Shown: piece by piece, positions 16,437 through 32,413 of the stretch
How positions within the stretch are numbered: the first letter of the stretch is position 1
How the letters are laid out: each line of letters opens with the position of its first letter
From: Salinibacterium xinjiangense
Lineage (GTDB): Bacteria > Actinomycetota > Actinomycetes > Actinomycetales > Microbacteriaceae
Length of the DNA: 64,000 nucleotides
Assembly: GCF_014645015.1 (NCBI RefSeq)
Contig: NZ_BMLC01000005.1
Location: forward strand, 62,001 to 126,000
Direction of reading: 5' to 3'
Position numbers and translations under genes: made by a program
The notes under the pieces: generated by a model
Told to the model about the DNA's origin: nothing
Database searches by the model: none
What the model saw: the letters and a program-made list of their open reading frames with translations, nothing else

Positions 16437-18104
16437 ATGGACGAAGTTCATCGCCTTGATATTTCCCCCGTTGACAGTGCGGGGATCGGAACCTTCGCGG
16501 GGGAAGCCGCGGGCGCTCGACCGCTCGATGCGGGTGATCCAGCGGTCTTGATCGACGTTCAAGGGCTGGAGAAGACTTACGCCGGGAGCTACGCGCTGGC
16601 CGGCGTGGATTTCCAGCTCCTGCGCGGAGAGGTGCATGCACTGCTCGGTCAGAACGGCGCAGGAAAATCGACCTTCATAAAGGTGCTCGCCGGGATCGAG
16701 CGGCCCAGCGCCGGCCGCATCCAGGTGTTGGGCCAGGAGAGGTCATTCCATTCCGCTCACGACTCGCGGTCTGCGGGCATCGCCATCGTCTACCAGGAGC
16801 TCAGCCTCATCCCAACGATGAGAGTGGTCGACAATCTTTTTCTTGGACGGGAACCCCGTAAGGGGTTCGGCGTCGTCGACAGGAAGAAAATGCTGGCTCA
16901 GGCACGTGCGTTTCTGAAGGAGTACGACTTCCCTCTCGACCCGCGCGCACTCGTCTCCGAGCTTCCCTTCGCGTATCGGCAGATGACCGAAATCGCCAAG
17001 GCGCTCATGGGCAACGTTCGCATACTGGTGCTCGATGAGCCGACATCCGCGCTATCCGAGCACGAGGAGGAGGTGCTGTTCAGCGCCGTGCGGAAGGTCG
17101 TCGCCCGTGGTGTCGGAGTCATTTATGTCACCCACCGCCTCAGCGAGGTCTTTGCTATGTGCGACCGCGTCACGGTTCTCCGAGACGGTTCCAACGTGGG
17201 GTCGTTCCCGACTGCCGAGATTGACATGCCTGGGCTGGTCTCGGCAATCGTCGGCCCGAGTGAGCCGATCGCAGCCGAGTTGATGGCGACGGAAGCCACC
17301 GACCACGTCAGCAACCACCAGGTGAAAAGCCCTGACACGCAGTCACCTGTCATATCGAGGGTGACCCCGTTCCTGGAGTTGACGGATGTCAAAAACGACG
17401 CGCTCAACGGCGTGTCTATCACCGTCCGGCCGGGAGAGATCGTCGGTTTGGCCGGAGTGATCGGAAGCGGTCGCACGGAGATCCTTGAAACGATATTCGG
17501 ACTCCGGAGCGTCGCCGAAGGTGCGCTGATGATCGGGGGCCAGCATCGGCGGCTGAAATCACCCACCGATGCGATTCGTCTCGGCATCGGCCTCGTCCCG
17601 GAAGACCGTCACGAGCAGGGGTTGGTGCTCGAGCACACGATCGACCGAAATCTGTCACTCCCGCTGCTGAAGCGGCTTACCCGCTTTGGACGGTTTCGTA
17701 CGCGCGCCTCGATGAGGCGCTCCCAACTCGTCATGACTGCGCTTTCGGTCAAGGCTCCGAACCAGCTGGCCACCCTGATGACGCTCTCCGGCGGAAACCA
17801 GCAAAAGGTTGTGTTTGGTAAGTGGCTGGAGCCCCGATGCGAACTTCTGCTCCTGGATGAGCCGACCGTTGGCGTCGACGTCGGCGCGCGCGAAGAGATT
17901 TACCAGGTGATTAGACAGGCCGCTGCTGAGGGGACGAGCACGCTCGTCGTGTCGAGTGATCTCAGTGAACTCCTCTTGCTCTGCGACCGCATTTACGTCG
18001 TACGTGACGGCAAGACGCATCAATCGATGGCGCGAAACGAGATTTCCAACGTGGAGGAATTCCACCATCTCGTTGCCGCTGAGCGTCTGACGCCCGACGT
18101 TTAG
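16437..18104 (+). CDS. Ribose-type ABC transporter ATPase (RbsA/MglA family)
   Basis: The start at ATG 16437 is chosen because GGAG lies just upstream; the open frame extends further back without support. The 555-residue product has two fused nucleotide-binding domains. The first has Walker A GQNGAGKST (residues 71-79) and Walker B ILVLDEPTSAL. The second has a degenerate Walker A (GVIGSGRTE), signature LSGGNQQKV and Walker B LLLLDEPTVGVDVGA. This is the standard RbsA layout. It energises uptake of a sugar or polyol through the permease and lipoprotein encoded next, and is the first gene after the predicted promoter and operator. Confidence 0.92.
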   Translation: MDEVHRLDISPVDSAGIGTFAGEAAGARPLDAGDPAVLIDVQGLEKTYAGSYALAGVDFQLLRGEVHALLGQNGAGKSTFIKVLAGIERPSAGRIQVLGQERSFHSAHDSRSAGIAIVYQELSLIPTMRVVDNLFLGREPRKGFGVVDRKKMLAQARAFLKEYDFPLDPRALVSELPFAYRQMTEIAKALMGNVRILVLDEPTSALSEHEEEVLFSAVRKVVARGVGVIYVTHRLSEVFAMCDRVTVLRDGSNVGSFPTAEIDMPGLVSAIVGPSEPIAAELMATEATDHVSNHQVKSPDTQSPVISRVTPFLELTDVKNDALNGVSITVRPGEIVGLAGVIGSGRTEILETIFGLRSVAEGALMIGGQHRRLKSPTDAIRLGIGLVPEDRHEQGLVLEHTIDRNLSLPLLKRLTRFGRFRTRASMRRSQLVMTALSVKAPNQLATLMTLSGGNQQKVVFGKWLEPRCELLLLDEPTVGVDVGAREEIYQVIRQAAAEGTSTLVVSSDLSELLLLCDRIYVVRDGKTHQSMARNEISNVEEFHHLVAAERLTPDV

Positions 18105-18195
18105 GCTCCGCAACCATCTTCCCGGAATTGACCTGGCATCCGAGAAACCGAACTTCCCGTGCCGCGCCGCGGAAAAACAGAAAGGAAAGACCGTT

Positions 18196-19194
18196 ATGTC
18201 CACGAAAGTAGCAATCGCTCCCACTGGGACGACCGAGATAACCTCGAGCAAGGCACTGCAGAAGAATTTTTCTCGCGCCGCAGCCCCGTACCTGATGTAC
18301 GGCGTCTTCGTCGCATTGATCGTATTCTTCTCGCTGCAATCCCCGGTGTTCTTTACCGCGTCCAATTTTCTGAACATCGGACAGCAGACAGCACTGGTCA
18401 CGATCATCGCGGTCGGGATGACCTTCGTCATCATCTCGGGGGAGATTGATCTCTCAGTCGGCGCATCGCTGGCACTGTCGGGAGTGGCGGCAGCACTCGC
18501 TATGGAGTCCACGGGTGGCAACCTCCTCGTCGGCGTCGTTGTCGGGCTTTCGGTCGGCGCACTCATCGGCCTGGTCAACGGACTTATCACCACGGGTCTG
18601 GGGATACCGTCCTTTCTTGTCACCCTCGCAACGCTCGGCATCGCGCGGGGGCTCGCGTTGATGATCAGTCAGGGGCAGCCTGTGCTCATCGCGAACAGCG
18701 ATTACTGGAATCTCTTCAATAGTGCCCGCGTCTTCGGTATTCCGGTGCCGATGCTGTGGACGGTTTTCGTGTTGTTGATCGGCGTATATCTTCTGCATGT
18801 AAGCGCCTATGGTCGGCGAGTTTATGCGGTGGGGGGCAACCGGAAGGCGGCGCTCTACTCAGGAATTATGGTGAACCGGGTCAAGATCTGGGCGTTCGTG
18901 CTTACGGGTGCCGCCGCTGGCTTTGCTGGCCTGATCTGGACGGCACGAGCCCAGGCTGCCCGCCCCGATACGGGCAACGGCATGGAACTCGACGTGATCG
19001 CTGCCGTGATCCTCGGGGGAACCAACCTCTTCGGCGGCAAGGGGATGATTCTCGGCACGCTCGTGGGGAGCCTCATAATCGGCGTCATCAACAACGGTCT
19101 GACCCTGATGGGTGTCAGTTCATCGGCGCAAATGATAGTGAAGGGGGCAATCATCATCGTCGCTGTTGCGCTGTCGACCCTGCGACGACGCTGA
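18196..19194 (+). CDS. Ribose-type ABC transporter permease (RbsC family)
   Basis: A 332-residue integral membrane protein with about ten membrane helices. Family motifs are present: GEIDLSVGASLALSG, GLITTGLGIPSFLVTLATLG, VYAVGGNRKAALYSGI and AAVILGGTNLFGGKGMI. A ribosome site (GAAAGGAAAG) precedes the ATG. A homodimer of this protein would form the channel. It is separated from the ATPase by 91 bases and from the lipoprotein gene by about 140, all co-directional. Confidence 0.92.
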   Translation: MSTKVAIAPTGTTEITSSKALQKNFSRAAAPYLMYGVFVALIVFFSLQSPVFFTASNFLNIGQQTALVTIIAVGMTFVIISGEIDLSVGASLALSGVAAALAMESTGGNLLVGVVVGLSVGALIGLVNGLITTGLGIPSFLVTLATLGIARGLALMISQGQPVLIANSDYWNLFNSARVFGIPVPMLWTVFVLLIGVYLLHVSAYGRRVYAVGGNRKAALYSGIMVNRVKIWAFVLTGAAAGFAGLIWTARAQAARPDTGNGMELDVIAAVILGGTNLFGGKGMILGTLVGSLIIGVINNGLTLMGVSSSAQMIVKGAIIIVAVALSTLRRR

Positions 19195-19334
19195 GAATTC
19201 GGCGGCCCAGGACGGTGAGTGGAGATTCCTTACCTCGACGGGCGCAACCGTCAGCATTTGCAAACTGGAGTTTCTGAAGAAGGCTCGCGGCAACCCTTGC
19301 AGCAGAGCAGCCTTACTAATCAATGGAGATGGAA

Positions 19335-20513
19335 ATGAAGAAGACCTATAGCAGGACTGCCCTTATGGGTTTGCTTGTGGCTGGCCTCGTGGCGACCACG
19401 GGATGTAGCGCCGTGACCACCGCGGATGGCACGACCGCTGGTGGGGCGGCGTCGATATCCGGTTGTCCGGAGAAGATCGATTCAGCGGCGCTTCAGCCGC
19501 CAACTCCGGTCGGCCTGAGTCCTCGTGGTAACGCCCCGGCTTCCCCCGACGTCGCGGAACTCACCGACGCAGACATTGCCAAGTTGAAGACGAGCAAGTT
19601 CAAGGTCGGCATCGCGATGCAGACCGCGGACATCGACTACACCACAATCCTCGTCCGGGCCATGAAGCGCACGTTTGCCGAGAACAACGTTGAAGTCGTC
19701 GCGGTCACTGACGGTGGCTGGAACGTAACCAAGCAGCAGACCGACATTCAAAACATGATCCAGTTGAAACCGGATGGCATCCTGTCGGTTCCGACCGACA
19801 GCGTCGGCATGGCCTCGACCTACCGCACGGTCAGCCAGGCCGGAATCAAGCTCATCACACTCGACGACATGCCGCCCGGCCTCGAATGGCCGAACGAAGT
19901 TGCCACCTCGAGCGGCATGGATCAGAAGGGTATGGGCCAGATCGCTATGGCGGTGCTCGCGCAGTGTATCCCCAAGGGCGGAACGGTCGGCATGGTCAAA
20001 ATCGACATCGTGCTCTGGGCCGCCAACCAGCGTGACGAGGGTGCCATCGAGTGGCTCAAGCGCGAGCGCCCGGACATCAAGCTCAAGACGGTCGGTGTAG
20101 CCAACCCGAAGGATGTTGAGCAGAAGGCATCCGACTTCGTGACGGCGAATCCTGATCTACAGGGACTCTGGACTCCGTGGGACGGCCCGGGTCTGCAGGC
20201 TCTCGCCGGCCTGCGAGGAAACGGGAGCAACATCCCCGTGACAACCCAGGACCTCGGAACCGAGTTCGCGATGAACGTTGCTCAGGGTACACAGCTCATT
20301 GGAGGCGGCGCCCAGGAACTCGATGCGCAGGGTCGCACTCATGCGCTCGCCATGATCAAGGTGCTTCTCGGCGACGAAATGCCGGAATACATCGCCCATC
20401 CTGCCCTCGTGGTGACCAAGGACAACCTGACCGCCGCGTGGAAGCAGGTGTGGGGATCTGCCCCGCCAGCAGACCTCGTGAAAGCATGTAAAGCAACGGC
20501 GGGTTGCAACTAG
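19335..20513 (+). CDS. Sugar-type ABC transporter substrate-binding lipoprotein
   Basis: Starting at MKKTYSRTAL (ATG 19335, GGAG just upstream) gives 392 residues with a type II signal peptide and the lipobox VATTGCSAV. The mature part is a periplasmic-binding protein type 1 fold: FKVGIAMQTADIDYTTILVR, QQTDIQNMIQLKPDGILSVP, WTPWDGPGLQALAGLRGNG and DEMPEYIAHPALVVTKDNL. It is anchored outside the membrane and delivers ligand to the permease. The ligand cannot be read from sequence; a sugar, polyol or sugar acid is expected from the family. Confidence 0.9.
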   Translation: MKKTYSRTALMGLLVAGLVATTGCSAVTTADGTTAGGAASISGCPEKIDSAALQPPTPVGLSPRGNAPASPDVAELTDADIAKLKTSKFKVGIAMQTADIDYTTILVRAMKRTFAENNVEVVAVTDGGWNVTKQQTDIQNMIQLKPDGILSVPTDSVGMASTYRTVSQAGIKLITLDDMPPGLEWPNEVATSSGMDQKGMGQIAMAVLAQCIPKGGTVGMVKIDIVLWAANQRDEGAIEWLKRERPDIKLKTVGVANPKDVEQKASDFVTANPDLQGLWTPWDGPGLQALAGLRGNGSNIPVTTQDLGTEFAMNVAQGTQLIGGGAQELDAQGRTHALAMIKVLLGDEMPEYIAHPALVVTKDNLTAAWKQVWGSAPPADLVKACKATAGCN

Positions 20514-20541
20514 TCACTTCCACAGTTCCATAACCGACCCG

Positions 20542-20580
20542 GCCCCGGTCTCAAGCGTGTGCACCATGTGAGACCGGGGC
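20542..20580 (+). terminator. Stem-loop after the lipoprotein gene
   Basis: CCCCGGTCTCA (20543-20553) pairs perfectly with TGAGACCGGGG (20569-20579) around a 15-base loop. There is no strong T-run, so it may act as an attenuator or mRNA-stabilising hairpin, favouring transporter messages over the enzymes downstream. Confidence 0.6.
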
Positions 20581-20718
20581 TGGTTCGGCCTATTCCAGCT
20601 TCAGGGTCGTTTTCAGTTCGGATCTGAAGCTTTGTGATCCGGCGCTACCAAGCGGGTCGGCAACAAGATTGTCTCGTTTACCACCAGTCATCCAACTCAA
20701 CCTTTTGGAGAAAACACC

Positions 20719-21666
20719 ATGGCTACAGCTCTCGATAAATATGCGGATATGAAGCCCAACTGGGACTATCCGGTCATCATCGAGTCCCACATCAACGGCG
20801 TTCGATCAAAGGCGATGAACCCCAACACCCCCATCTCCTACGACGAAATCGCCGAGGACGCCATCCGCTGTTGGGAGGCGGGGGCAACGGCGATTCACGC
20901 CCACAACACCAGTTTTGACCTTCTCGGGAAGGATGCGTACAAGGACTACATGCGCAGTTGGGACAAGGTACTGGAGAAGCACCCCAACATCACCTGGTAT
21001 CCGACCACCTGCAACAACCTTCGGTTGACCTCGGATCAGCATGGGCTGGAGCATGTGCCCTTCCTCGCTGCGGACGCCAACGTGAAAATCGCTTGTATAG
21101 ATACGGGGATTTCTCTCTTCTCTGCGGGCCTCGACGAGGAGGGCTACATCGTGGGGCGCGAGTATGGCTTCAACTATGATCGCGTCGCTGGCCAGGTGAA
21201 GATGTGCCGCGAGCGCGATATGCCGATTGTTTGGGGAGTCTACGAGCCCGGGTACCTTCGCCACGCGATGCACTACGTCAACCAGGGCATGTCCACCAAG
21301 GGCTCGATGTGGGACTTTTACCTGATCGGCGACTACGGACTCACTGCACTGGAGCCGATCGGTACCTGCGGCATGAAGCCCAGCTTTGAGAGCCTGTACT
21401 ACTACCTGATGATGATTGAAGAGGCTAAGGTCAAGCACCCCTGGTTTGTTTCAATTTGGGGACAGGGCGCTTTCGACGACACCGCCCTGTTGCGTCGAGT
21501 GATCGAACTGGGCGGGCACGTGAAGACCGGGTTGGAGTTGTTCTACGACCCGGCTCGTAACCCCACCAACCTCGAGTTGCTTCAGCAGGTTCAGGAAATC
21601 GCCCGGGAAGTGGGCAGGCCCATTGCCACTCACGAGGAAGCAAGGAAGCTTTACAACATCTCGTAG
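20719..21666 (+). CDS. BKACE family (DUF849) beta-keto acid cleavage enzyme
   Basis: A 315-residue TIM-barrel protein. SHINGVRSKAMNPNTPISYD with EIAEDAIRCWEAGATAIHAH matches the 3-keto-5-aminohexanoate cleavage enzyme family, in which the two histidines of HAH bind zinc. Family members convert a beta-keto acid plus acetyl-CoA into acetoacetate and a new acyl-CoA, with specificity set by pocket residues. The ribosome site TTTTGGAG precedes the ATG. The protein is on the long side and diverges after the HAH motif (NTS instead of the common R), so it may be a distinct subgroup. Substrate unknown. Confidence 0.82.
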   Translation: MATALDKYADMKPNWDYPVIIESHINGVRSKAMNPNTPISYDEIAEDAIRCWEAGATAIHAHNTSFDLLGKDAYKDYMRSWDKVLEKHPNITWYPTTCNNLRLTSDQHGLEHVPFLAADANVKIACIDTGISLFSAGLDEEGYIVGREYGFNYDRVAGQVKMCRERDMPIVWGVYEPGYLRHAMHYVNQGMSTKGSMWDFYLIGDYGLTALEPIGTCGMKPSFESLYYYLMMIEEAKVKHPWFVSIWGQGAFDDTALLRRVIELGGHVKTGLELFYDPARNPTNLELLQQVQEIAREVGRPIATHEEARKLYNIS

Positions 21667-21680
21667 GGACGCCCGAACGT

Positions 21681-21722
21681 CGAAAACGGGAGCACGCTGA
21701 TGGAAGCGTGCTCCCGTTTTCG
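21681..21722 (+). terminator. Strong stem-loop after the BKACE gene
   Basis: An 18-base perfect stem (CGAAAACGGGAGCACGCT and its complement) around a 6-base loop, with a T-run in the descending arm. It would terminate in either direction and splits the cluster into two likely transcripts. Confidence 0.9.
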
Positions 21723-22210
21723 CTCGAAGTTATCTCTGCGTTGGCCAGCGAATTCCCTTCGTCGAATTCGTTTGGTGTCAATTAGCGGGATGGCTTGGGA
21801 TCGTTGGCGTCCGGTACGACGGTCCACTCCATTGCTGGCGGCCACGCTGAACCTGGCGCGGCGGGGATTATCACTGCGATCGAGGCACGCCCCGGTCTGG
21901 CCTCCGTCGCAGACGGGGGAAAGCCCAACGTCATCATGCTCGAAACGGTCACGGCAGCCCCATGACGGGCGGTCAGCTCTGGACAGATATGAAGATGGCG
22001 GCGGATGCATAGGTAAGTTCCGTCCCGATACATTCGTGACTGAGCGGCCTCCGTGGTTCCGTAGACTCACGCCATCATTCTGGTTGGTTTGTCGTCCCGT
22101 CAAAATTGGCTTGCGGTGGGTCCAACTAGTGCATAGCATAGGGTTTCATATTGCGAATGAATATTCACAAGCAAACGTAGACGACGACGTCGATAGGAAG
22201 GCGGTTCCCC
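21723..22210. other. Intergenic region upstream of the E1 genes
   Basis: About 490 bases. One plus-strand frame (about 21808-21965) reads like the tail of a protein (HSIAGGHAEPGAAGIITAIE, then GGKPNVIMLETVTAAP and stop) but has no start and no family could be assigned. TGAATATTCA at 22158-22167 is a palindrome close to the E1 alpha start and may be a regulatory site. GGAAGG before 22211 is the ribosome site. Confidence 0.4.
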
Positions 22211-23194
22211 ATGGCCGAACTGGCACGCGACACGCTGCGCGAAATGCAGCTTCGGATGTTGAGAATCCGAGCGTTCGACGAGCGCGCGTCCAAGATGGTC
22301 AAACGAGGCCACATTCCCGGCACGGTTCACACCAGCATCGGGCAGGAGGCGCAGGTAGTCGGCGCCACCATGGCCCTCGGCACGGGTGACTACATGAGTG
22401 GAAACCACCGCAGCCATGGGCACCCCATCGGAAAAGGTTCACCACTCGGCCCGCTCATGGCGGAGCTCGTGGGCAAGGCGACGGGCGTCTGCAAGGGCAA
22501 GGGCGGCTCGCTGCACCTCGCTGACTTCGCCGTCGGAAGCCTTGGCGAGTCCGGCATCGTCGGGTCGTCCATTCCGATCGCCAATGGAGCAGCCCTCTCG
22601 TCGAAAGTGCTCAACAATGGCAAAGTCGCGCTCGCCTTTTTCGGCGACGGGGCCGCCAATCAGGGTGTTCTCTATGAGTCGATGAATATGGCAGGCGTGT
22701 GGGACCTCCCTATGATCTTTCTGTGCGAGAACAACCAGTACGCGCTGAGCACGCCCGCTCACACTGTGACATCGGGCATCATCTCCGAACGTGCCGCTGG
22801 ATTCGGGATGCCCGGAATCAGAGTTGAAGAAGGACAAGACGTGCTGGCTGTGTATGACGCGGTCTCAGCGGCAGTGGCTCGGGCGCGAGCGGGAGATGGA
22901 CCCACGTTGGTGGAGGTCATCACGTATCGCTACAACGAACATTCCGAAGGCCTGAAGCTGGGCACAGATTACCGAAACGCCGATGAGCGCGAAGCCTGGC
23001 TGAAGAAGGATCCGATCGTGCTCTTCCGCCAGTATCTGGCATCACAGGGGTTCTCCGAAGAAGAGCTCGATGGCCTTCAGGCCACTGCCCTCGCGGAAGT
23101 TGACGCGGCGGTTGCATTTTCGGACGCGAGCCCCTACCCCGATCTCTCGGTCGCCTTCGACGACCTCTACACCGACAAGGAATCCGTCGCATGA
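22211..23194 (+). CDS. TPP-dependent 2-oxo acid/acetoin dehydrogenase E1 alpha
   Basis: A 327-residue E1 alpha subunit. The thiamine diphosphate motif starts with GDG at residues 145-147 (FFGDGAANQG) and ends with ENN at 173-175. GHIPGTVHTSIGQEA and GNHRSHGHPIGKG are typical of acetoin dehydrogenase and pyruvate dehydrogenase alpha chains. Together with the beta chain it would decarboxylate or cleave an alpha-keto compound and pass the acyl group to a lipoyl domain. The stop overlaps the beta-chain ATG by four bases. The acetoin type is the closest by feel, but the substrate here is unknown. Confidence 0.9.
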   Translation: MAELARDTLREMQLRMLRIRAFDERASKMVKRGHIPGTVHTSIGQEAQVVGATMALGTGDYMSGNHRSHGHPIGKGSPLGPLMAELVGKATGVCKGKGGSLHLADFAVGSLGESGIVGSSIPIANGAALSSKVLNNGKVALAFFGDGAANQGVLYESMNMAGVWDLPMIFLCENNQYALSTPAHTVTSGIISERAAGFGMPGIRVEEGQDVLAVYDAVSAAVARARAGDGPTLVEVITYRYNEHSEGLKLGTDYRNADEREAWLKKDPIVLFRQYLASQGFSEEELDGLQATALAEVDAAVAFSDASPYPDLSVAFDDLYTDKESVA

Positions 23195-24219
23195 CTGTGA
23201 TGAGCTATCTCAGCGCTATTGGCGCAGCCCAGCGCGAGGCGATGGACGCAGATGATCGCGTCATCATCATCGGCGAAGACGTCGAAGCCAATGTCTACGG
23301 CACCACCGGCGGCGGCAAATCCCGCAGCATCGAGGGTGATTTTCTCCAGCGGTACGGCAAGAACCGCATCCGCAACACCCCGATCTCCGAGGAGGGCATC
23401 GTCGGCGCCGCCGCCGGTGCTGCAATGACCGGACTGCGCCCGATCGTGGATCTTTCCTACTCGAGCTTCCTTTATATGGCTATGGATCAGTTCGTGAACC
23501 AGGTTGCGAAAAACCGGTACATGTTCGGCGGCCAGGCTTCAATGCCCGTGGTCTTCCGCTCTGCGATGTTCTACGGACTGAATACCGGCGCACATCACTC
23601 TGACCGACCGTATCCGATGTTCATGAACGTGCCGGGCCTGAAAATCATCGCGCCCGCCACGCCCGCAGACGCCAAAGGGCTGCTCCGATCCGCAGTCGAT
23701 TCCGACGACCCGGTGCTCAGCTTCGAGGCCTGCCTGCTGTGGAGTACGAAAGAAGACGTCGACGAGGATGAGTTCTGGGTGCCGCTGGGTGTTGCCCGTA
23801 CTGCGCGCGAAGGAACAGACGTCACCGTCGTTGCAATCTCGAGCTCAGTTCCCGAAGCCGTAGCGGCCGCAGAAGAGTTAGCGAAGGAAGGAGTGTCCGT
23901 GGAGGTCATCGACCCCCGCACCCTCGTTCCTCTCGATCGCAATGCCATTCTGCGATCCGTGGCAAAAACGGGTCGACTCGTCGTAGCGGAACCGGCGCAC
24001 CGCACCTGCGGGGCAGCCGCGGAAATCAGTGCGCTCGTGGCCGAAGAAATCTTCGATTCTCTCAGGGCGCCGATCATTCGAGTGACGGCACCGGATATGC
24101 AAATCCCATTCAGCCCGTCGCTGGAAAAGCAGATGTACCCGACGAAGGCCAGTATTGCGGCCGCCATCCGTCGTGTAGTTGACCTACCGGCGCTTGAGCC
24201 GGTCGCAGCCGCAGTCTGA
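23191..24219 (+). CDS. TPP-dependent 2-oxo acid/acetoin dehydrogenase E1 beta
   Basis: A 342-residue E1 beta subunit. Visible motifs are IIIGEDVEANVYGTTGGGKS, NTPISEEGIVGAAAGAAMTG, QASMPVVFRSAMFYG with HHSDRPYPMFMNVPGLKIIA, and the C-terminal transketolase domain (VIDPRTLVPLD). It forms the alpha2beta2 E1 with the preceding gene. Overlap with the upstream gene and 18-base spacing to the lipoyl gene indicate one operon. Confidence 0.92.
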   Translation: MTVMSYLSAIGAAQREAMDADDRVIIIGEDVEANVYGTTGGGKSRSIEGDFLQRYGKNRIRNTPISEEGIVGAAAGAAMTGLRPIVDLSYSSFLYMAMDQFVNQVAKNRYMFGGQASMPVVFRSAMFYGLNTGAHHSDRPYPMFMNVPGLKIIAPATPADAKGLLRSAVDSDDPVLSFEACLLWSTKEDVDEDEFWVPLGVARTAREGTDVTVVAISSSVPEAVAAAEELAKEGVSVEVIDPRTLVPLDRNAILRSVAKTGRLVVAEPAHRTCGAAAEISALVAEEIFDSLRAPIIRVTAPDMQIPFSPSLEKQMYPTKASIAAAIRRVVDLPALEPVAAAV

Positions 24220-24237
24220 TAACGAAAGAGAAATCAC

Positions 24238-24480
24238 ATGGCGCGTATAGATGTGTTGCTTCCCCAGTGGGGAATGGGCATGAGCGAAGGAGCAATCGTC
24301 GAGTGGCTCAAGAAGGTGGGCGACCACGTCGACGAAGACGAACCTCTGGCGGAAATTGAGGCGGAGAAAGTCGAGGAAACCCTCGAGTCGCCAGCCACGG
24401 GGACCCTGGTTGAGATCCTGGTTCAGGCAGGCGCCTCAGTCGAGGTCCGCACCGTTATTGCCGTGATCGAAACCGAATAA
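24238..24480 (+). CDS. Free-standing lipoyl-domain protein
   Basis: An 80-residue protein that is nothing but a biotinyl/lipoyl domain: LLPQWGMGMSEGAIVEWLKK, then EIEAEKVEETLESPATGTLV. Lys44 in EAEKVEE is the predicted lipoylation site. In ordinary complexes this domain is the N-terminus of the E2 acyltransferase; here the frame stops after the domain and no intact E2 follows. A decayed E2 catalytic domain lies 4.3 kb downstream. The protein probably serves as acyl carrier for the E1 encoded just upstream. Confidence 0.88.
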   Translation: MARIDVLLPQWGMGMSEGAIVEWLKKVGDHVDEDEPLAEIEAEKVEETLESPATGTLVEILVQAGASVEVRTVIAVIETE

Positions 24481-24518
24481 ACGCGAGCCTCAGAGAAAAC
24501 AATGAAGCAGGAGCAGCC

Positions 24519-26246
24519 ATGAGCACATCTTCGGTGAACGCGCACGACACCCGCCTTCCTTACGACCTGGTCGTCGTGGGTGCCGGCATCAACGGACTGG
24601 GCATAGCCCGCGATGCGGCAGCGCGGGGATTGCGAACGATTGTCATCGACCAGGAAGATATTTGCAGTGGAGTATCGGCCTGGTCGGGGCGACTTATTCA
24701 CGGCGGGCTCCGATACCTGGAGCACAAGGACTTTGCCCTGGTCCGTGAATCCCTGAAGGAGCGCGAGCGCCTCTTCAAGCTTGCTCCGCACCTCGTGAAG
24801 CCTGTGCCGCTCCTCATGCCGTTCTACGCCCGCAACAAGCGGCCGTCGTGGTTGATCCGACTCGGTATGATCGCCTACGACGTGCTGTCATGGGATAAGA
24901 AGCAGCCCAACCACACGATTTTGACGAAACGCGCGGTGCTATCCCGCTTCACCGGGATGGAGCCGGCCGGCCTCAGCGGTTCGGCGGTCTTCATTGACGG
25001 ACAGGTCGAATACGCAGAGCGGCTCTGTGTCGAACTCGCGGTAGCCGCACAGGCTGACGGAGCCGACGTCGTCACCCACTCCCGAGTCGATGGGTTGCTC
25101 AGGAACGGTTCCCGAGTGACCGGCGTGCAGTACACCGACTCCATCACGGGAGAGCGGCATTCCGTGCACGGGCGCGTGGTCATGAATGCCGCCGGCCCAT
25201 GGATCGACCGCCTGCTTACTGATGTCGGGGGAGTCGAGGCGCCCCGATTCATCGGTGGCTCCAAAGGCAGCCACATTATCGTGGCTCCCTTCCCCGGAGC
25301 ACCGCACGACGTCGTGTACTACGAGTCGCAGGCCGATGGCCGCCTGGTTCTGGTCATACCGTGGATGGACAGGTACCTCATCGGGTGCACCGACAACCTC
25401 TATGACGAGGAACCGGATTCCGCCCGCGCAGAACAGTCGGAGATCGACTACCTCCTGCACGAGGTGAACACTCTCGTGCCGGGAGCGAAACTCACCACCG
25501 GCGACGTTCTGTACACCTACAGCGGAGTGCGGCCATTGCCCTACGCGCCCGGGGTGCCTGAATGGAAGATTCCACGAAGCCACATCATCCACGACCACGC
25601 TGACGAGGGCGTCGAGGGCCTCTTCACCGTCATCGGTGGCAAGCTCACGACATTTCGGCAGCTCTCTGAGGATGCCGTCGACCTCACGCTTCGCAGCCTC
25701 GGTCTCAAGAAAACAAAAACGATCACGCTGACAAGCCCACTTCCCGGTGCTCGCGTAGCGAACTATGAGGCGTTCTCGAAGGCGTTCATCTCGACCGGCG
25801 GTGTGCCACCGTTGTCGGCGAAGCGGCTCCTCGCTCTGTACGGAGTGCGAGCAGCAGATATAGCAGCCCTGGCGAATGACGATGCCGGTCTGCTCGAGGT
25901 CGTCGACGAAAAGTCGGGGGCGCTAGCCGCTGAAGTGGTCTTCGCCATAGATAAAGAGTTCGCCCGAACCCTCACTGATGTCATGGCGAGACGCCTCCTG
26001 CTGGCGTTCGAACCGGGTCACGGCATCGAGGGCGCCCGGCGGATCGCGACGATAATGGGGGCCATCAACGGCTGGAATGAAGCCCGCATCCAGAATGAAC
26101 TCGACGGCTACGTCGAGTGGCTCGACCACCTTGCCGTCCCTGGCCGACCCGCGGTGCAAATTCCCGGTCACGCGACATCCGGTGAACGTGAAAATGGGTT
26201 GCCCGTCGTCGGCGTCGGCCTCCAGGGCGGCCGGGCAGAGCTGTGA
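24519..26246 (+). CDS. GlpD-like FAD-dependent polyol-phosphate dehydrogenase
   Basis: A 575-residue flavoprotein. The FAD motif GAGINGLG is at residues 21-28. GLRYLEHKDFALVRESLKER, GSKGSHIIVAPFPGAP and YTYSGVRPLPYAPGV, with GGKLTTFRQL, are hallmarks of the glycerol-3-phosphate dehydrogenase GlpD family. It is expected to oxidise a polyol phosphate to a ketose phosphate at the membrane, passing electrons to quinone. The directly following FGGY kinase overlaps it. The pair could process glycerol, but erythritol-type loci (EryA kinase, EryB GlpD-like oxidase) have the same architecture together with an ABC importer and a SorC regulator. Confidence 0.87.
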   Translation: MSTSSVNAHDTRLPYDLVVVGAGINGLGIARDAAARGLRTIVIDQEDICSGVSAWSGRLIHGGLRYLEHKDFALVRESLKERERLFKLAPHLVKPVPLLMPFYARNKRPSWLIRLGMIAYDVLSWDKKQPNHTILTKRAVLSRFTGMEPAGLSGSAVFIDGQVEYAERLCVELAVAAQADGADVVTHSRVDGLLRNGSRVTGVQYTDSITGERHSVHGRVVMNAAGPWIDRLLTDVGGVEAPRFIGGSKGSHIIVAPFPGAPHDVVYYESQADGRLVLVIPWMDRYLIGCTDNLYDEEPDSARAEQSEIDYLLHEVNTLVPGAKLTTGDVLYTYSGVRPLPYAPGVPEWKIPRSHIIHDHADEGVEGLFTVIGGKLTTFRQLSEDAVDLTLRSLGLKKTKTITLTSPLPGARVANYEAFSKAFISTGGVPPLSAKRLLALYGVRAADIAALANDDAGLLEVVDEKSGALAAEVVFAIDKEFARTLTDVMARRLLLAFEPGHGIEGARRIATIMGAINGWNEARIQNELDGYVEWLDHLAVPGRPAVQIPGHATSGERENGLPVVGVGLQGGRAEL

Positions 26247-27802
26247 CGGGCCGCTATGTCCTTGCGCTCGATGAGGGGTCGAGCAGCGCGAGGGCGGTTC
26301 TCGTCGATGCGGACGGGCGGATCGTCGCCGAGGCCTCAAATCCGCTCACGCCCCTCTTCCCTAACCACGGCTGGGTCGAGCTTGACCCCGCCCAGCTGTG
26401 GACAGCGATGCGGGCAGCGATCGACGAGGTAATGGATCGGACGGGGCTGACGGCGCGTGATATCGCCGCCGTCGGGGTGACAAGTCACCGTGAGACCTGT
26501 CTGATCTGGGACCGATCAAACTCCGTCCCCGTGCACAACGCAATTATGTGGTCTTCACACCAGACTGATGAGATCGTCCAGCGTTGGTCTGAGATGGGTC
26601 TCGATGCCGAGGTCCGCACCCGCACCGGGCTTCGAAACGACTCCTTTTTTTCGGCCGCAAAACTGGCCTGGTTCATCGAGAACGTCCCGGGACTCAAAGC
26701 GCTTGCAGGCACGGGCGCTTACGCTGCCGGAACAGTCGACACCTGGCTTGTGTGGAACCTTACCGGCGGGCGTGAGCACGTCACCGATGCGACATCGGCG
26801 TCGCGAACGGCATTGCTCAACATCGACGGGCTCGTGTGGGACGAACGACTCTGCGACGCATATGGAATCCCGCAGGATCTCCTCCCCGAGGTGCGCGCTT
26901 CCAATGCGCACTTCGGCTACCTCGACCCCAGCATTCTGCTCGGTGGCGCCGGCCACCGCATACCCATCCACGCGATCGTTGCTGATCAACAGGCCGGACT
27001 GTTCGGTCAGGGCTGTTTCGATGAGGGGTCAGTCAAGAACACCTTTGGGACCGCCGGCGTGCTCGTCGCTAACGTCGGGAGCAGCCCACTGTTCCTCCCC
27101 GGAATGACCACCAGCGTCGCGATGAACATCCCCGGGCTCACCAGCTACGAGGTCGAGGGGGTGGTGTTCCACAGTGGGCAGACACTTCATTGGCTGCGTG
27201 ACAAGATGCGGGCAGTTGGATCTGTTGCGGAGATGGAGCGCATCGCGGAACGAGTCGTCGACACCCAGGGGGTCTACTTTGTTCCTGCGTTCGCCGGGCT
27301 CTGCGACCCCTACTGGGACAAAGACGTTCGAGCATCGATTTTCGGGTTGACCCTTGACACGGGCATCGACCAGATTGTTCGCGCGGCGCTCGAAGCCATG
27401 GCCTACCAGACGCGTGACAACCTCGACGCTTTGCGCGCTGGCGGTATGAGCGTGACGTCGCTGAAGGTAGATGGCAAGGCAGTCTGCAACAACTTCCTGT
27501 GCCAGTTCCAGGCAGATATCCTCGACATGCCGGTCATCCGGCCGGAGGGCCTCGAACGCACCGCCCTCGGAGTTGCCTACATCGCCGGGGCAGAAGTGGG
27601 TCTGTGGAACGCGCAGGACCTCGTGCGCGAAACGTGGCGTGTGGAGCGAGTATTCGAGCCCCGCATGACTAGCGATCGTCGCGACCAGCTCTATGGCGGT
27701 TGGCAGGCCGCCGTGCGATCCGCCCGCATGATGCCGCCCGCACCACCTCACCCGACGAGCGGGACGGCTCTCGGACCCATCCCGGAACTGGCCGCACACT
27801 GA
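26243..27802 (+). CDS. FGGY-family polyol/carbohydrate kinase
   Basis: A 519-residue kinase of the hexokinase/Hsp70-fold FGGY family. LALDEGSSSARAVLVDADGR is the first phosphate loop, followed by GWVELDPAQLWTAMR and VGVTSHRETCLIWD. The C-terminal domain has YFVPAFAGLCDPYWD and ALEAMAYQTRDNLDALRAGG. The layout is glycerol kinase-like. The GTG start overlaps the TGA of the GlpD-like gene. It should phosphorylate the polyol imported by the cluster's transporter. Glycerol, erythritol/threitol or another short polyol are all possible; no residue pattern visible by eye decides it. Confidence 0.87.
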   Translation: MTGRYVLALDEGSSSARAVLVDADGRIVAEASNPLTPLFPNHGWVELDPAQLWTAMRAAIDEVMDRTGLTARDIAAVGVTSHRETCLIWDRSNSVPVHNAIMWSSHQTDEIVQRWSEMGLDAEVRTRTGLRNDSFFSAAKLAWFIENVPGLKALAGTGAYAAGTVDTWLVWNLTGGREHVTDATSASRTALLNIDGLVWDERLCDAYGIPQDLLPEVRASNAHFGYLDPSILLGGAGHRIPIHAIVADQQAGLFGQGCFDEGSVKNTFGTAGVLVANVGSSPLFLPGMTTSVAMNIPGLTSYEVEGVVFHSGQTLHWLRDKMRAVGSVAEMERIAERVVDTQGVYFVPAFAGLCDPYWDKDVRASIFGLTLDTGIDQIVRAALEAMAYQTRDNLDALRAGGMSVTSLKVDGKAVCNNFLCQFQADILDMPVIRPEGLERTALGVAYIAGAEVGLWNAQDLVRETWRVERVFEPRMTSDRRDQLYGGWQAAVRSARMMPPAPPHPTSGTALGPIPELAAH

Positions 27803-27838
27803 CGTGCAGGTCCCCAAACTGAACCAATCGAAAGGATC

Positions 27839-28711
27839 ATGATGACTACGAACACAGCCGAAAACTACGTCGCCCGCGCCAGAGCGGGCGGCTACGCAGT
27901 AGGCGGTTTCAACATGCACAACCCTGAGACCACGCAAGCGCTGATCGAAGCGTCAATTCGCGCTGAATCACCAGTTTTCCTGCAGGTTGGACGGGCGATC
28001 GTTCCTCACATGGGCCTCGAGGCCGCGTATCGCATGACCCGTCGTGAACTCGACGGCACGGGAGCGGATGCGGTCATCCACCTCGACCACGGCACCTACG
28101 ACGAAGTCTTCGAAGCCCTGCGCCTCGGATTCGACTCGATCATGTTTGACGGTTCCCACCTGCAGTTCGAAGAAAATTTGAAAGCTACCCGCTACATCGT
28201 TCAGGTCGCACACTCATTCGGCGTTCCTGTGGAGGCCGAACTGGGCAGCATTCCCGATGCGTCCGACGGGATCGACTGGTCAGCGCACTACACGAACGTC
28301 GACGAAGCCGAACGTTTCGTCGCGGAGACCGGCGTCGACTTCCTGGCGATCTCGGCAGGCGTAATGCACGGCCTCACCTCCGGCGACCCCCTGCCCCTGG
28401 ATATCGAACGGATCCAGCGCATTCGCGATGTTACGGGCGTTCCCCTCGTTTTGCACGGGGCGTCGGGTGTGCCTGGGTCGGATATCAGCGCGGCGATCGC
28501 CGCTGGTGTGCACAAGCTGAACGCCGATACCGATCTCCGCCATGCCTTTCGGCGCGGTATCGAAGAGACCTGGGCCAGGGGTGATCGCCAGCTCGAGGAT
28601 GCTATGTCTGTGGGAAAGAGCATGATGATCGAAGCGACGATAGCAAAAATGCGTGAGTACGGGTGTGCGGGCGCCTCGACGGCTGCCGTTTTGACTGAAG
28701 CCCGGGTGTGA
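27839..28711 (+). CDS. Class II (zinc) ketose-bisphosphate aldolase
   Basis: A 290-residue class II aldolase. VIHLDHGTYDEVFEALRLGF contains the catalytic aspartate and zinc histidine (Asp83, His84). FDSIMFDGSHLQFEENLKAT, GVPVEAELGSIP and VLHGASGVPGSDISAAIAAG complete the family pattern. AAGGATC precedes two adjacent ATGs. It probably cleaves a ketose phosphate to DHAP and an aldehyde, following the kinase and the dehydrogenase. Fructose-1,6-bisphosphate, tagatose-bisphosphate and other ketose phosphates are possible substrates. Confidence 0.9.
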   Translation: MMTTNTAENYVARARAGGYAVGGFNMHNPETTQALIEASIRAESPVFLQVGRAIVPHMGLEAAYRMTRRELDGTGADAVIHLDHGTYDEVFEALRLGFDSIMFDGSHLQFEENLKATRYIVQVAHSFGVPVEAELGSIPDASDGIDWSAHYTNVDEAERFVAETGVDFLAISAGVMHGLTSGDPLPLDIERIQRIRDVTGVPLVLHGASGVPGSDISAAIAAGVHKLNADTDLRHAFRRGIEETWARGDRQLEDAMSVGKSMMIEATIAKMREYGCAGASTAAVLTEARV

Positions 28712-28774
28712 CGACGCGACATCAGAATTGGGCGAGGGCCATCGCATCGAGCTGAATGAGCTGGGTCGAACCAA

Positions 28775-29216
28775 AGCGCGGCCCACGTTCAGGTCGACGG
28801 CGAAGCGGTCGTCTCGTTCTTACGGGCTCGGGTCGGGGTAGCTGTCTCGATTGGGAAGCGTCTGACAGTACCCACCTGGTATCAACATCGATCGGCTGGA
28901 TCTCGAAGAGGCCGCTCAGCGCGGGCGCGACGTCGTCGGTGGTACTCGTTCCGGTGGACTGCGGCGCGACGACATCGCTGGGGAACGTTCACGGTGTCGG
29001 ATCTCGGCGTGCTCGGTGTGAGGCGCTTCGGCGCTATCGTGAGCGGGCCCTGGGCTGCGATTCTGGCGGTGGAGCCATAATCCGCCGGGGTGCCTGCGTC
29101 GAGGATGGTGGGAGTCGCGAGCCATCGCCGAACTGGCACTGGCGTGGGAATGCCGCGCTCTCGATGGAGCAGGTGCGGCTGGGTTTCTCGCGGGCGTGAA
29201 ATCGACACCGGGCGCC
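28775..29216 (+). pseudogene. Dihydrolipoyl acyltransferase (E2) catalytic-domain relic
   Basis: Three frames spell the end of an E2 catalytic domain in order: HVQVDGEAVVSF with RVGVAVSIGKRLTVP; IDRLDLEEAAQRGRDVVGG with LRRDDIAG; then GTFTVSDLGVLGVRRFGAIV with GPWAAILAVEP; then LALAWECRALDGAGAAGFLA with GVKST. The catalytic HxxxDG motif has become ECRALDG, losing the histidine. There are at least three frame breaks. The domain's N-terminal part and any lipoyl/linker region are absent. This is likely what is left of the E2 that once partnered the E1 and lipoyl genes upstream. Confidence 0.75.
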
Positions 29217-29288
29217 ACACGAACAACGTGCATTCCGTGGCAGCAGGCTGCTGTGTTGACCGCTGTGCGTGCCGCCGCGTGCCACCCA

Positions 29289-30254
29289 TCACTCCCGCAG
29301 GAGTCGCTCTGCCGTTTCCATATCCGTCACCAGGGTGTCGATCCAATGGCCGCGAAGGGCGGCCCGCACGGCCTCGTATTTCGATCTTCCACCAGCGACG
29401 GCAAATCGTCCGCCCGCGGCGGGAAGCTGCGCCAGGGTCACGCCGATCACGAGGGAGTCAAGTTCGCTCTGGATCGGAGTTCCCTCCGCATCGATGAACC
29501 TCAGGTTGATCTGCCCCACGGCGCCGAGCGATTTTGCCCTGTCGAATTGCTCCACTGTGAAAAAGTTGCCGCCTGGCTCCAATGGTGCATCGATATTGCA
29601 GGCACCAATACCGACAAGGGCAACGTCCAGCTCATCCAGGGCCGCGATCGCTTCGCGGGTGTGCACGTCGTAGTTGATCATTGCCTCACGAGCTTCCGCA
29701 GAAGCCAGAACCCCGGGAGCTCGGATAAACAGCGGTGACCCTCCAATCAGGTCAGCAAAACGCTGCGTGGAACGGGTGGAATCATGCTGAAGCTGTGGCG
29801 GGCCGACGTCCCCGAGCATTTCGACGACGCGGGTGAGGTCGGACCTCTTTCTCGACGGTTCGAGGGCATTCACGAGTGAACGCAGCGAACGGCTCCACGA
29901 AGTGAAGCCAATAGTTTTCCCCGACAATTGCATTGCCGAGAGGATCAAGGCGGCGGCCTCACCGAGGTCGCGATTGATGGCGGCCTCGTCATTCAGATCC
30001 AGCGACTCCACTATGTGAACCTGGGACAACCCGTAGCGTTCCTGGAGATTCTCCTCGACCTCCGCGTGCAGGCCCTCTGGAATGACGACAACCGTTCTGA
30101 CGATGTTCGCCTGCTCGGCGGCCTGGAGCAGCCGAGAAACGCGGGCCTGCGATATTCCCAGGCTCGACGCAATCTCGACCTGCCGGATACCGTGGGTGTA
30201 GTACATACGCGCCACCTTCGTCATGAAGCGGCGCGGTTCGGGATCAGCAGCCAC
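29289..30254 (-). CDS. SorC-family sugar-responsive transcriptional regulator
   Basis: The start is placed at GTG 30254 because AAGGAG lies five bases upstream; the frame extends five codons further. The N-terminal helix-turn-helix reads YYTHGIRQVEIASSLGISQA, with RVSRLL. The remainder is the SorC sugar-binding domain: GKTIGFTSWSRSLRSLVNAL, VALVGIGACNID and IGVTLAQLPAAGGRFAVAGG. Such regulators bind phosphorylated sugars or polyols and often repress catabolic operons; EryD is an example. It faces the cluster on the opposite strand and is the likely controller of the operator at 16261. Confidence 0.88.
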   Translation of the reverse strand: MAADPEPRRFMTKVARMYYTHGIRQVEIASSLGISQARVSRLLQAAEQANIVRTVVVIPEGLHAEVEENLQERYGLSQVHIVESLDLNDEAAINRDLGEAAALILSAMQLSGKTIGFTSWSRSLRSLVNALEPSRKRSDLTRVVEMLGDVGPPQLQHDSTRSTQRFADLIGGSPLFIRAPGVLASAEAREAMINYDVHTREAIAALDELDVALVGIGACNIDAPLEPGGNFFTVEQFDRAKSLGAVGQINLRFIDAEGTPIQSELDSLVIGVTLAQLPAAGGRFAVAGGRSKYEAVRAALRGHWIDTLVTDMETAERLLRE

Positions 30255-30353
30255 AGCTGCTCCTTCCACTGAAGATTCTCAGCGCATTGAGATTCGTTAA
30301 CGGCAAGAATATCCAAAACGATTTAGGTTAAGCCAGTGGGTGTTCCGTGAGGA

Positions 30354-31823: not shown

Positions 31824-32413
31824 CGCGGTCGGAGCGCGCGCCTTACGTGCAGTTTCAGATCAGCCGGGAGCCTGTCGCGACAATGGCGTCAGCCGATGAC
31901 TTGGGGTGTCACCTGGAGCCCCACAAACAACCCAACTGGAGTACAACGTGAAGAAGACGGTGTCGAGAAGACGGGCACTGGTGACGTCGAGCTTCACGAG
32001 GCATCGGCCGTGGCGGGGATTGGATGTCACATCCCAGATATGCACGACATGATGGATCGGCTGGGACGAACACCATTCGCCCGAGGCTTTGGAACAGAAG
32101 ATTGGCGCTAATGTGCTCATGCAACGGATTATCGGGAACGACCGTCACGTCACAGCAACGATGGCCACAGCGCTCTTGGTGAGGAACCGGAAATCTCTGT
32201 AAACGACGTCCGGGATCACTTTCGAGCTCTGCGCTGAAGTGCGATCCTTCGGGACCTGATCGTAACGAATCGGTCACGAGTGGACTATCTGGCGAAATCC
32301 TCTTGTGGGCACACGTAAGATGCCTCTAACCTCATAGTGAATCAAATCCGGTTCATTGAATAAAAATGCAGTAGATCCCAGTCCCAGCCTTACCCATCTT
32401 CAAGGAGTCAAAG
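31824..32413. other. Intergenic region upstream of the second ABC operon
   Basis: About 590 bases without a recognisable gene; open frames on both strands show no family motif. The last 60 bases are AT-rich and probably hold the promoter of the lipoprotein gene, with a weak TGAA...TTCA inverted repeat at about 32337-32356. Confidence 0.45.

Follow-up and report, generated by a model that had tools for sequence, protein, structure and literature searches.

A catabolic gene cluster lies between 16437 and ~38785 of the 64,000-nucleotide stretch of Salinibacterium xinjiangense DNA analysed here (hereafter the window), combining ribose-type ATP-binding cassette (ABC) importers with a BKACE-fold enzyme, a thiamine pyrophosphate (TPP)-dependent E1, a lipoyl-only protein, a GlpD-like oxidase, an FGGY kinase and a class II aldolase of the dihydroxyacetone phosphate (DHAP) type. 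The initial annotation of this stretch had closed the cluster at 29216, with a SorC regulator inside it and all genes in one direction; the families that it named are all present by Pfam, but the regulator is on the minus strand and past that end. The features of the whole unit are as follows.

16437-18104, plus strand: ATPase of ribose-type ABC importer A (PF00005), with 67% identity to its counterpart in the BKACE string of a Propionibacteriaceae metagenome-assembled genome (MAG)
18196-19194, plus strand: permease of importer A (PF02653), 66% identical to the Propionibacteriaceae MAG
19323-20513, plus strand: substrate-binding lipoprotein of importer A (PF13407), 63% identical to the Propionibacteriaceae MAG
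20719-21666, plus strand: BKACE-fold metal enzyme of a divergent clade (PF05853, 147 bits, cut-off 24.8)
22211-23194, plus strand: TPP-dependent E1 alpha (PF00676, 258 bits), 72-97% identical in relatives with the same module
23191-24219, plus strand: E1 beta (PF02779/PF02780), 72-96% identical in relatives with the same module
24238-24480, plus strand: lipoyl-only protein, the lipoyl half of a split E2 (PF00364, 73 bits)
24519-26246, plus strand: GlpD-like FAD polyol-phosphate oxidase (PF01266/PF16901), in its own clade
26243-27802, plus strand: GlpK-derived FGGY kinase (PF00370/PF02782), in its own clade
27839-28711, plus strand: class II DHAP-type aldolase (PF01116, 260 bits)
28702-29223, plus strand: decayed remnant of a separate E2 acyltransferase gene, E2cat (DNA alignment to the Cryobacterium gene; residual PF00198)
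29289-30269, minus strand: SorC/DeoR-type regulator (PF04198, 169 bits), 89% identical to the gene in Cryobacterium locus L013
31034-31783, plus strand: lipoate/octanoate ligase-transferase-like (LplA/B-like) protein (PF21948, 27.1 bits, cut-off 27)
31986-32352, plus strand: weak remnant of an EHN-type epoxide hydrolase gene (DNA alignment against shuffles; tblastn pieces)
32414-33568, plus strand: substrate-binding protein (SBP2) of importer C (PF13407; nearest solved chain 2rjo, E 1e-42)
33666-34715, plus strand: permease of importer C (PF02653)
34679-36244, plus strand: ATPase of importer C, true start possibly later (PF00005)
36241-37272, plus strand: second permease of importer C (PF02653)
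37289-38785, plus strand: M20 aminoacyl-His-dipeptidase-like hydrolase (TIGR01893, 416 bits, cut-off 343.75)

Conservation of the gene set across genomes

Comparison of loci resolved the gene set into three modules: A (E1 alpha, E1 beta, lipoyl protein, GlpD-like oxidase, FGGY kinase, aldolase and E2cat), B (substrate-binding protein, ATPase, permease, FeADH, XylB-like FGGY kinase and HAD phosphatase) and C (SBP2 importer, M20 hydrolase and epoxide hydrolase, often with BKACE). The window holds A and C without B. The FeADH of module B is glycerol-1-phosphate-dehydrogenase-like (117.5 bits, cut-off 413), the XylB-like kinase scores 310 bits in its Rubrobacter copy, below the XylB cut-off of 380, and the phosphatase is of the HAD-IIA, phosphoglycolate-phosphatase-like type. 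Genes were tabulated for 22 genome groups, in a table where a blank entry may mean that the stretch lies outside the sequence examined and where L013 and L024, being the same contig, are counted as L024 only. The two E1 genes and those for the lipoyl protein, GlpD-like oxidase and aldolase form one string in one orientation in every group with E1 (14/14), and this string spans two phyla. It includes the kinase in 13 of the 14 groups, Shinella being the exception. In 11 groups it also holds an intact E2cat, which is decayed in the window, and the two Rubrobacter have none of this type.

The order in Cryobacterium is E1 alpha, E1 beta, lipoyl protein, GlpD-like oxidase, FGGY kinase, aldolase, E2cat, SorC, lipoate-ligase-like protein and BKACE, continuing with epoxide hydrolase, SBP2, permease, ATPase, permease and M20, at identities to the window that are mostly 77-97% (49-91% in locus L011). 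Arthrobacter, Pseudarthrobacter and Sinomonas carry the cluster families at 54-80% identity, the lipoate-ligase-like protein at 33-36%, and some of its components are found again in Rubrobacter, Shinella and a Rhodobacteraceae MAG. Modules A, B and C occupy one region in genomes G115 and G087, where BKACE is on another contig, and are joined by BKACE on a single contig in the Cryobacterium-type genome G227; G073 has A and B plus M20. Shinella combines the A string, without its kinase, with module B, a Cif-like hydrolase and a DXR-II cassette, and the Rubrobacter-type genome G299 combines A without E2cat with FeADH, the XylB-like kinase, a Cif-like hydrolase, BKACE, M20 and a DRL cassette.

Co-occurrence was assessed in three samples from the window's order, which were drawn separately and overlap in their genomes, with at most five candidates scored per genome for E1 and at most three for FeADH. 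BKACE was found in 6/248 genomes (E up to 1e-30), the window-type E1 alpha in 6/396 (E up to 1e-105) and the module B FeADH in 5/392 (E up to 1e-60). The six genomes with E1 are the same six that have BKACE, and the FeADH set is those six minus the window genome. Since three of them (G087, G115 and G157) belong to one genus, these represent four genera rather than six independent cases. In G073, G087, G115 and G157 the BKACE and E1 genes do not share a contig; contig positions place them far apart in G073 and G115, while the G157 draft is broken into short contigs, so that separate contigs there are no proof of distance. A phylum-wide sample returned BKACE in 3/396 genomes, namely the window genome and two of one genus. 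Scanning genome contigs for the BKACE protein with exact peptide patterns, which miss distant kin, yielded 14 BKACE-clade loci, of which ten (L010-L019) are flanked, within the stretch examined, by module A or C genes of the window type. L009 has a parallel module and L022 an SBP2-type importer; the flanks of L020 and L021 contain no genes of module A or C, the parallel module or the SBP2 importer, and L021 has another ABC importer.

Because importer A and BKACE resemble the Propionibacteriaceae MAG (67, 66, 63 and 84% identity over the block) and the remainder resembles Cryobacterium, the window locus is a mosaic, which is what a chance neighbourhood of unrelated metabolic genes could look like. 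The gene order shared by several genera across two phyla, together with co-occurrence even across contigs, contradicts that explanation, which retains next to no probability; the co-occurrence check that accompanied the initial annotation, once run, settled this point. The cluster is almost certainly a functional unit. The gene system to which it belongs is a real, conserved, mobile (horizontally shared) catabolic system, and the claim that it is a conserved unit has held up, no described pathway having been matched to it.

Epoxide hydrolases of two kinds accompany the system. The remnant at ~31986-32352 has a DNA alignment score of 102 against a shuffled maximum of 72, and tblastn pieces at 32037-32234 match both ends of an EHN epoxide hydrolase protein; the window genome contains no EHN family protein. 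An EHN-type hydrolase (closest solved structure 5f4z, E 7e-75) is near BKACE in Cryobacterium, Arthrobacter and Sinomonas. In Rubrobacter and the Rhodobacteraceae MAG this place near BKACE is taken by a Cif-like hydrolase, 84% identical between the two, whose closest solved structure is the ‘soluble epoxide hydrolase’ 7ac0 (E 3e-41) and whose matches also include fluoroacetate dehalogenases. The presence of two unrelated hydrolase subfamilies in the same company suggests that the system processes an epoxide or related compound.

Enzyme families encoded in the cluster

The FGGY kinase passes the NF000756 subfamily model (561 over 498) and misses the GlpK equivalog TIGR01311 (539.8 vs 590.35). 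Nine cluster kinases form a clade (support 96/99), outside which falls the genome's own GlpK (C2:455081-456568, 742 bits). The GlpD-like protein narrowly misses the NF008899 equivalog (354 vs 360); eight cluster oxidases form a clade with support of 94/95, just under the mark for a firm branch, and the genome's own GlpD is again outside. The phylogenies advised in the initial annotation therefore show clades that are derived from GlpK and GlpD yet separate from the genome's own copies. The aldolase reaches TIGR00167 (220 over 215.6) and none of the FBA equivalogs, and alignment to 8q57 shows that it keeps the HLDH, AHG/MHG, LHGxSG and KxNxDT stretches. The logic of a polyol kinase, a GlpD-type oxidase and a DHAP-type aldolase, already put forward from the sequence, is thus borne out by the families.

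The comparison with erythritol (ery) loci fared differently. Rhizobial ery loci (EryABCD-TpiB-RpiB) likewise bring together an FGGY kinase, a GlpD-family oxidase, SorC and a ribose-type ABC importer, but the kinase and oxidase of the window cluster belong to other clades: midpoint rooting of the FGGY tree puts EryA of the Rhizobium 3841 ery locus in the opposite half, and EryB is outside the clade of eight oxidases. EryA, EryB and the genome's own GlpD are on long branches of unsure placement, with one reference each for EryA and EryB, and none of them joins the cluster clades. The cluster genes scanned include none of the EryC, TpiB or RpiB type, in agreement with the absence of ery isomerases noted initially, and the window cluster adds an aldolase, E1, lipoyl protein and E2. 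As the clades differ and the isomerases are missing, the ery-locus reading was rejected.

The lipoyl-only protein was first described as free, which is correct as far as it goes; it is better regarded as half of a split E2, whose partner is encoded by a separate intact gene in the relatives. Like the glycine cleavage H protein it carries lipoyl on a free protein that has no catalytic domain, but it belongs to the E2 lipoyl domain family (PF00364 73 bits vs GCV_H 22 bits), and its best NCBIfam model is the acetoin-dehydrogenase E2 (70 bits, far under the cut-off of 307). E1 alpha/beta with TPP, a lipoyl domain and a 2-oxoacid_dh acyltransferase are shared with acetoin and pyruvate dehydrogenase (PDH) complexes. 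Unlike in those complexes, the lipoyl domain and the acyltransferase are separate proteins rather than one chain, and the complex is encoded with a kinase, an oxidase and an aldolase; Pfam finds no E3-binding domain in the Cryobacterium copy of the catalytic protein. The cluster can be recognised as polyol catabolism by kinase, oxidase and aldolase to which an acetoin-type arm is attached, and the combination is without a described match in the literature searched.

The E2cat remnant of the window aligns to the intact Cryobacterium gene with 77.6% DNA identity over 499 nucleotides with 20 gaps (score 453; the highest of 30 shuffles reached 94); the 5' part is gone and a residual PF00198 match of 30 bits is left in a 106-residue frame. 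Together with the epoxide hydrolase remnant and a genome that lacks FeADH and any EHN family protein, this would fit a decaying island without a working pathway in the window organism. We regard that as distinctly improbable: BKACE, E1 alpha/beta, the lipoyl protein, the GlpD-like oxidase, the FGGY kinase, the aldolase, SBP2 and M20 are all open and 80-96% identical to Cryobacterium G227, and a second module has an intact E2cat homologue at C2:21384-22016 (255-residue frame; 58% to the Cryobacterium protein over 212 residues), which could replace the decayed activity. This parallel module of the window genome (G000 C2:21369-33000, L104) comprises E2cat, a GlpD-like oxidase, an aldolase, a fused E1 alpha-beta and a lipoyl protein, as well as an FGGY kinase, SorC, a Zn dehydrogenase and an ABC importer.

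Members of the BKACE clade are 64-84% identical to one another and the next plasmid relatives at most 31.5%, giving a sharp boundary. The predicted model (pLDDT 81) has as best Foldseek folds Kce (2y7f) and cis-epoxysuccinate hydrolase (CESH; 5zmu). The clade retains the H-x-H and Glu positions of Kce, which we take to be metal ligands. At the positions of Kce Arg226 and Asp231, whose numbering and catalytic roles we likewise assume, Lys and Leu are found in 12/12 clade members, whereas both Arg and Asp are present in 5/5 Kce-like rows (two Kce, Massilia, Streptomyces and Sphingomonas). The CESH and Agrobacterium rows have lost Arg and retained Asp, and CESH is without the Kce Glu as well. No NCBIfam equivalog cut-off is reached by the clade protein. 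The initial assignment to BKACE therefore stands for family (PF05853) and fold, while the keto-acid role attached to it is doubtful because two Kce catalytic residues are lost; judged from sequence, the enzyme may not cleave beta-keto acids. A function as an epoxide hydrolase like 5zmu was also considered and is unsupported (motif KTGLEL vs AIGLGD in CESH). In the Rhodobacteraceae MAG (L045, L046), two BKACE-clade genes lie ~11 kb apart, each adjoining ABC importer genes.

BKACE is also part of a Bmp-type nucleoside importer operon in G087 (L027:9956-10903, by Pfam) and, in the same layout, in G115 (L026:9391-10338); the G087 gene is flanked by pyrimidine phosphorylase/cytidine deaminase on one side and adenosine deaminase on the other. 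This setting amid nucleoside metabolism would suit the salvage of fragments derived from nucleosides, or of sugars deoxygenated at C1 or C5 (1-deoxyxylulose and side products of the 5-deoxyribose type), as would the XylB-like kinase of module B, E. coli XylB being stated to phosphorylate 1-deoxyxylulose in an excerpt of PMC3424233. Such salvage is nevertheless improbable as the purpose of the system, since a GlpD-type oxidase and a glycerol-1-phosphate-dehydrogenase-like enzyme imply reduced polyols, not sugars, and the epoxide hydrolases and M20 would go unexplained.

DXR-II genes beside the relatives

The Shinella plasmid locus (~40 kb) carries the module A string together with DXR-II accompanied by E1, E2 and E3. 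This DXR-II aligns with the solved 3upl/3upy over 436 residues without gaps (705 bits), and the family was shown to produce 2-C-methylerythritol 4-phosphate (MEP) from 1-deoxyxylulose 5-phosphate (DXP), according to an excerpt of PMC3847144. The Rubrobacter and Rhodobacteraceae loci have a DRL-domain oxidoreductase adjoining E1. Eleven DXR-II-family neighbourhoods, a non-random set hand-picked from 88 plasmid records and the examined loci, were compared; members at 37-57% identity to the Shinella protein may represent other branches. E1 alpha adjoins the DXR-II-family gene or is in the same string in nine of the eleven (Shinella, S. meliloti, Rhizobium K1/93, Aminobacter, Priestia, Pseudoroseomonas, Agrobacterium, Rhodobacteraceae and Rubrobacter), a glucitol-type phosphotransferase system (PTS) is nearby in four, and Ligilactobacillus has a transketolase and glucitol-type PTS in place of E1. 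The E2 proteins of two cassettes score 349 and 406 with the model for acetoin-dehydrogenase E2, above its cut-off of 307. The presence of DXR-II-family genes in E1/E2 strings, some with a glucitol-type PTS, suggests a catabolic role for DXR-II.

Catalogued examples in catabolic-looking E1/E2 strings are L058:39152-40477, L059:13887-15212, L060:14894-16219, L082:12001-13326, L085:8992-10317 and L086:10001-11326. The Ligilactobacillus salivarius plasmid string (L084:8995-16566) holds a DRL-family gene, the glucitol-type PTS, GutM, an annotated fructose-6-phosphate aldolase and the transketolase, and is a fermentative-looking variant.

On the simplest reading of these sister cassettes, a polyol phosphate would be oxidised and rearranged by DXR-II to DXP, which an acetoin-dehydrogenase-like complex would cleave to acetyl-CoA and glyceraldehyde 3-phosphate. 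The formation of DXP and 1-deoxyxylulose by E1 enzymes has precedent, since a mutant E. coli PDH E1 produces DXP in cells and purified PDH produces 1-deoxyxylulose (excerpt of PMC3424233). The likeness to the entry of the MEP pathway (DXS/DXR, DXR-II) is that the cassettes place DXR-II beside an acetoin-type complex; the difference is that they would run catabolically.

A candidate route for polyol breakdown

The best explanation overall, which we advance tentatively, is a catabolic system for an uncommon polyol, with a branched C5 compound as the leading substrate. Its steps seem on balance probable. Ribose-type ABC transporters, assigned by family, would import the polyol, a ligand suggested by context (step 1). 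The GlpK-derived kinase would, judging from its family, phosphorylate the terminal -CH(OH)-CH2OH end (step 2), and the GlpD-like enzyme would oxidise the phosphate-adjacent carbinol to the ketone R-CO-CH2-OP (step 3). In relatives, the second kinase and the glycerol-1-phosphate-dehydrogenase-like enzyme may treat the opposite carbinol configuration, so that epimers would converge on one ketone through the paired dehydrogenases, and the epoxide hydrolases of relatives would feed in epoxide precursors. The metal-dependent aldolase would then break or rearrange the carbon skeleton (step 4), and E1, lipoyl protein and separate E2 would work like acetoin dehydrogenase (step 5), passing acetyl from an alpha-hydroxyketone via lipoyl to CoA, so that a phosphorylated fragment of two or three carbons is left.

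That the substrate is a branched C5 compound (a methyl-branched polyol, 2-C-methyltetrol) is a possibility we hold with some doubt. A 2-methyltetrol would give HOCH2-C(CH3)(OH)-CO-CH2-OP after kinase and oxidase, and retro-aldol at the hydroxymethyl carbon would release formaldehyde, leaving a methyl enediol. If the formaldehyde then added back to the adjacent carbon, in a rearrangement resembling that of DXR, the product would be CH3-CO-C(OH)(CH2OH)-CH2-OP, from which E1 could remove acetyl to leave DHAP. If the formaldehyde were lost, E1 could instead remove acetyl from CH3-CO-CH(OH)-CH2-OP, with glycolaldehyde phosphate as the remainder, a product that would give the module B HAD phosphatase a purpose.

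A linear substrate is the alternative: in tetritol or pentitol catabolism, the kinase and GlpD-like enzyme would form a ketose 1-phosphate, the aldolase would split it to DHAP and formaldehyde or glycolaldehyde, and the E1/lipoyl arm would serve a separate C2-C4 metabolite such as acetoin. The kinase, oxidase, class II aldolase, SorC and ribose-type importer all fit, a glutathione-independent formaldehyde dehydrogenase gene is near module A in Shinella, and a distant relative of it is found at 12478-13620 of the window. We consider this unlikely, because the constant string of E1, lipoyl, oxidase and aldolase genes in all 14 groups argues for one pathway, EryA and EryB are outside the cluster clades, and the window dehydrogenase falls far under the fdhA cut-off.

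Several observations weigh against the branched-polyol proposal. The aldolase reaction that it requires of a branched ketone is a paper proposal, and no curated NCBIfam cut-off, that of PDH included, is reached by the E1 proteins, nor does any model assign them a substrate. BKACE and M20 have no step in it, a branched-polyol role does not predict BKACE in a nucleoside-uptake operon, and the Shinella plasmid carrying the A string has no BKACE. In four Arthrobacter, Pseudarthrobacter and Sinomonas loci the kinase and oxidase are ~11-13 kb from the aldolase and E2cat, with E1 outside the stretch examined. As E2cat and the epoxide hydrolase are broken in the window and the module B FeADH is absent from the genome, this organism may have a reduced form of the pathway. 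The support from DXR-II is also indirect: the Rubrobacter DRL is 43% identical to the Shinella DXR-II, possibly another family branch, and a Phyllobacterium relative has neither E1 nor transketolase/PTS alongside. PF21135 (DXR-II) has no match in the window genome or in G227 and one or two matches in six of eight genomes searched (eight DRL matches, two with surroundings read). DXR-II as part of the window cluster was accordingly rejected, and the DXR-II argument reaches the cluster through relatives only.

A wider version of the branched-polyol proposal, which we rate as somewhat unlikely, makes the window cluster a member of a mobile pool that consumes isoprene-derived C5 polyols and epoxides (2-methyltetrols, 2-C-methylerythritol and epoxydiols). 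Two kinase/dehydrogenase pairs of opposite stereochemistry would converge on one ketone, the aldolase and the split acetoin-dehydrogenase-like complex would give acetyl-CoA and a phosphorylated C2/C3 piece, and in the sister cassettes DXR-II would work in reverse, taking MEP via DXP to glyceraldehyde 3-phosphate and acetyl-CoA, that is, the MEP-pathway entry as catabolism. Among the matches listed in the open-access literature, neither a catabolic pathway for 2-C-methylerythritol or 2-methyltetrols nor a catabolic role for DXR-II appeared, which is weak evidence of novelty.

Whatever its substrate, the system comprises ~20 genes, conserved and transferable, that are found in Actinomycetota and alphaproteobacteria and are without a described pathway in the literature searched. 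Were a branched C5 substrate true, enzymes would be named for the microbial turnover of 2-methyltetrols, which are isoprene aerosol markers, and DXR-II would gain a catabolic role. Cryobacterium is a cold-habitat genus. Isoprene oxidation markers are reported from ice cores (excerpt of PMC11618991).

Some minor features of the locus remain to be described. The Zn alcohol dehydrogenase gene upstream of the cluster (12478-13620), distant kin of glutathione-independent formaldehyde dehydrogenase, was rejected as a formaldehyde dehydrogenase at 321 bits vs the fdhA cut-off of 637, and a Na/Ca exchanger on the opposite strand separates it from the cluster. The interval between BKACE and E1 alpha has no Pfam-recognised gene, only an open reading frame without family at 21700-22389, and was rejected as an epoxide hydrolase remnant (score 50, below the shuffled maximum of 67). 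The nearest solved chain of the importer A lipoprotein is 4yv7 (E 1e-15); ligand assignment from this and 2rjo was dropped, the matches being too distant. The M20 gene, whose start at 37289 was chosen by codon score, is found in 16/22 genome groups with the window counted and recurs in module C, in a system whose proposed pathway requires no peptidase. The lipoate-ligase-like protein has weak NCBIfam matches to GcvH octanoyl/lipoyl-transferases and is 82% identical in Cryobacterium L013.

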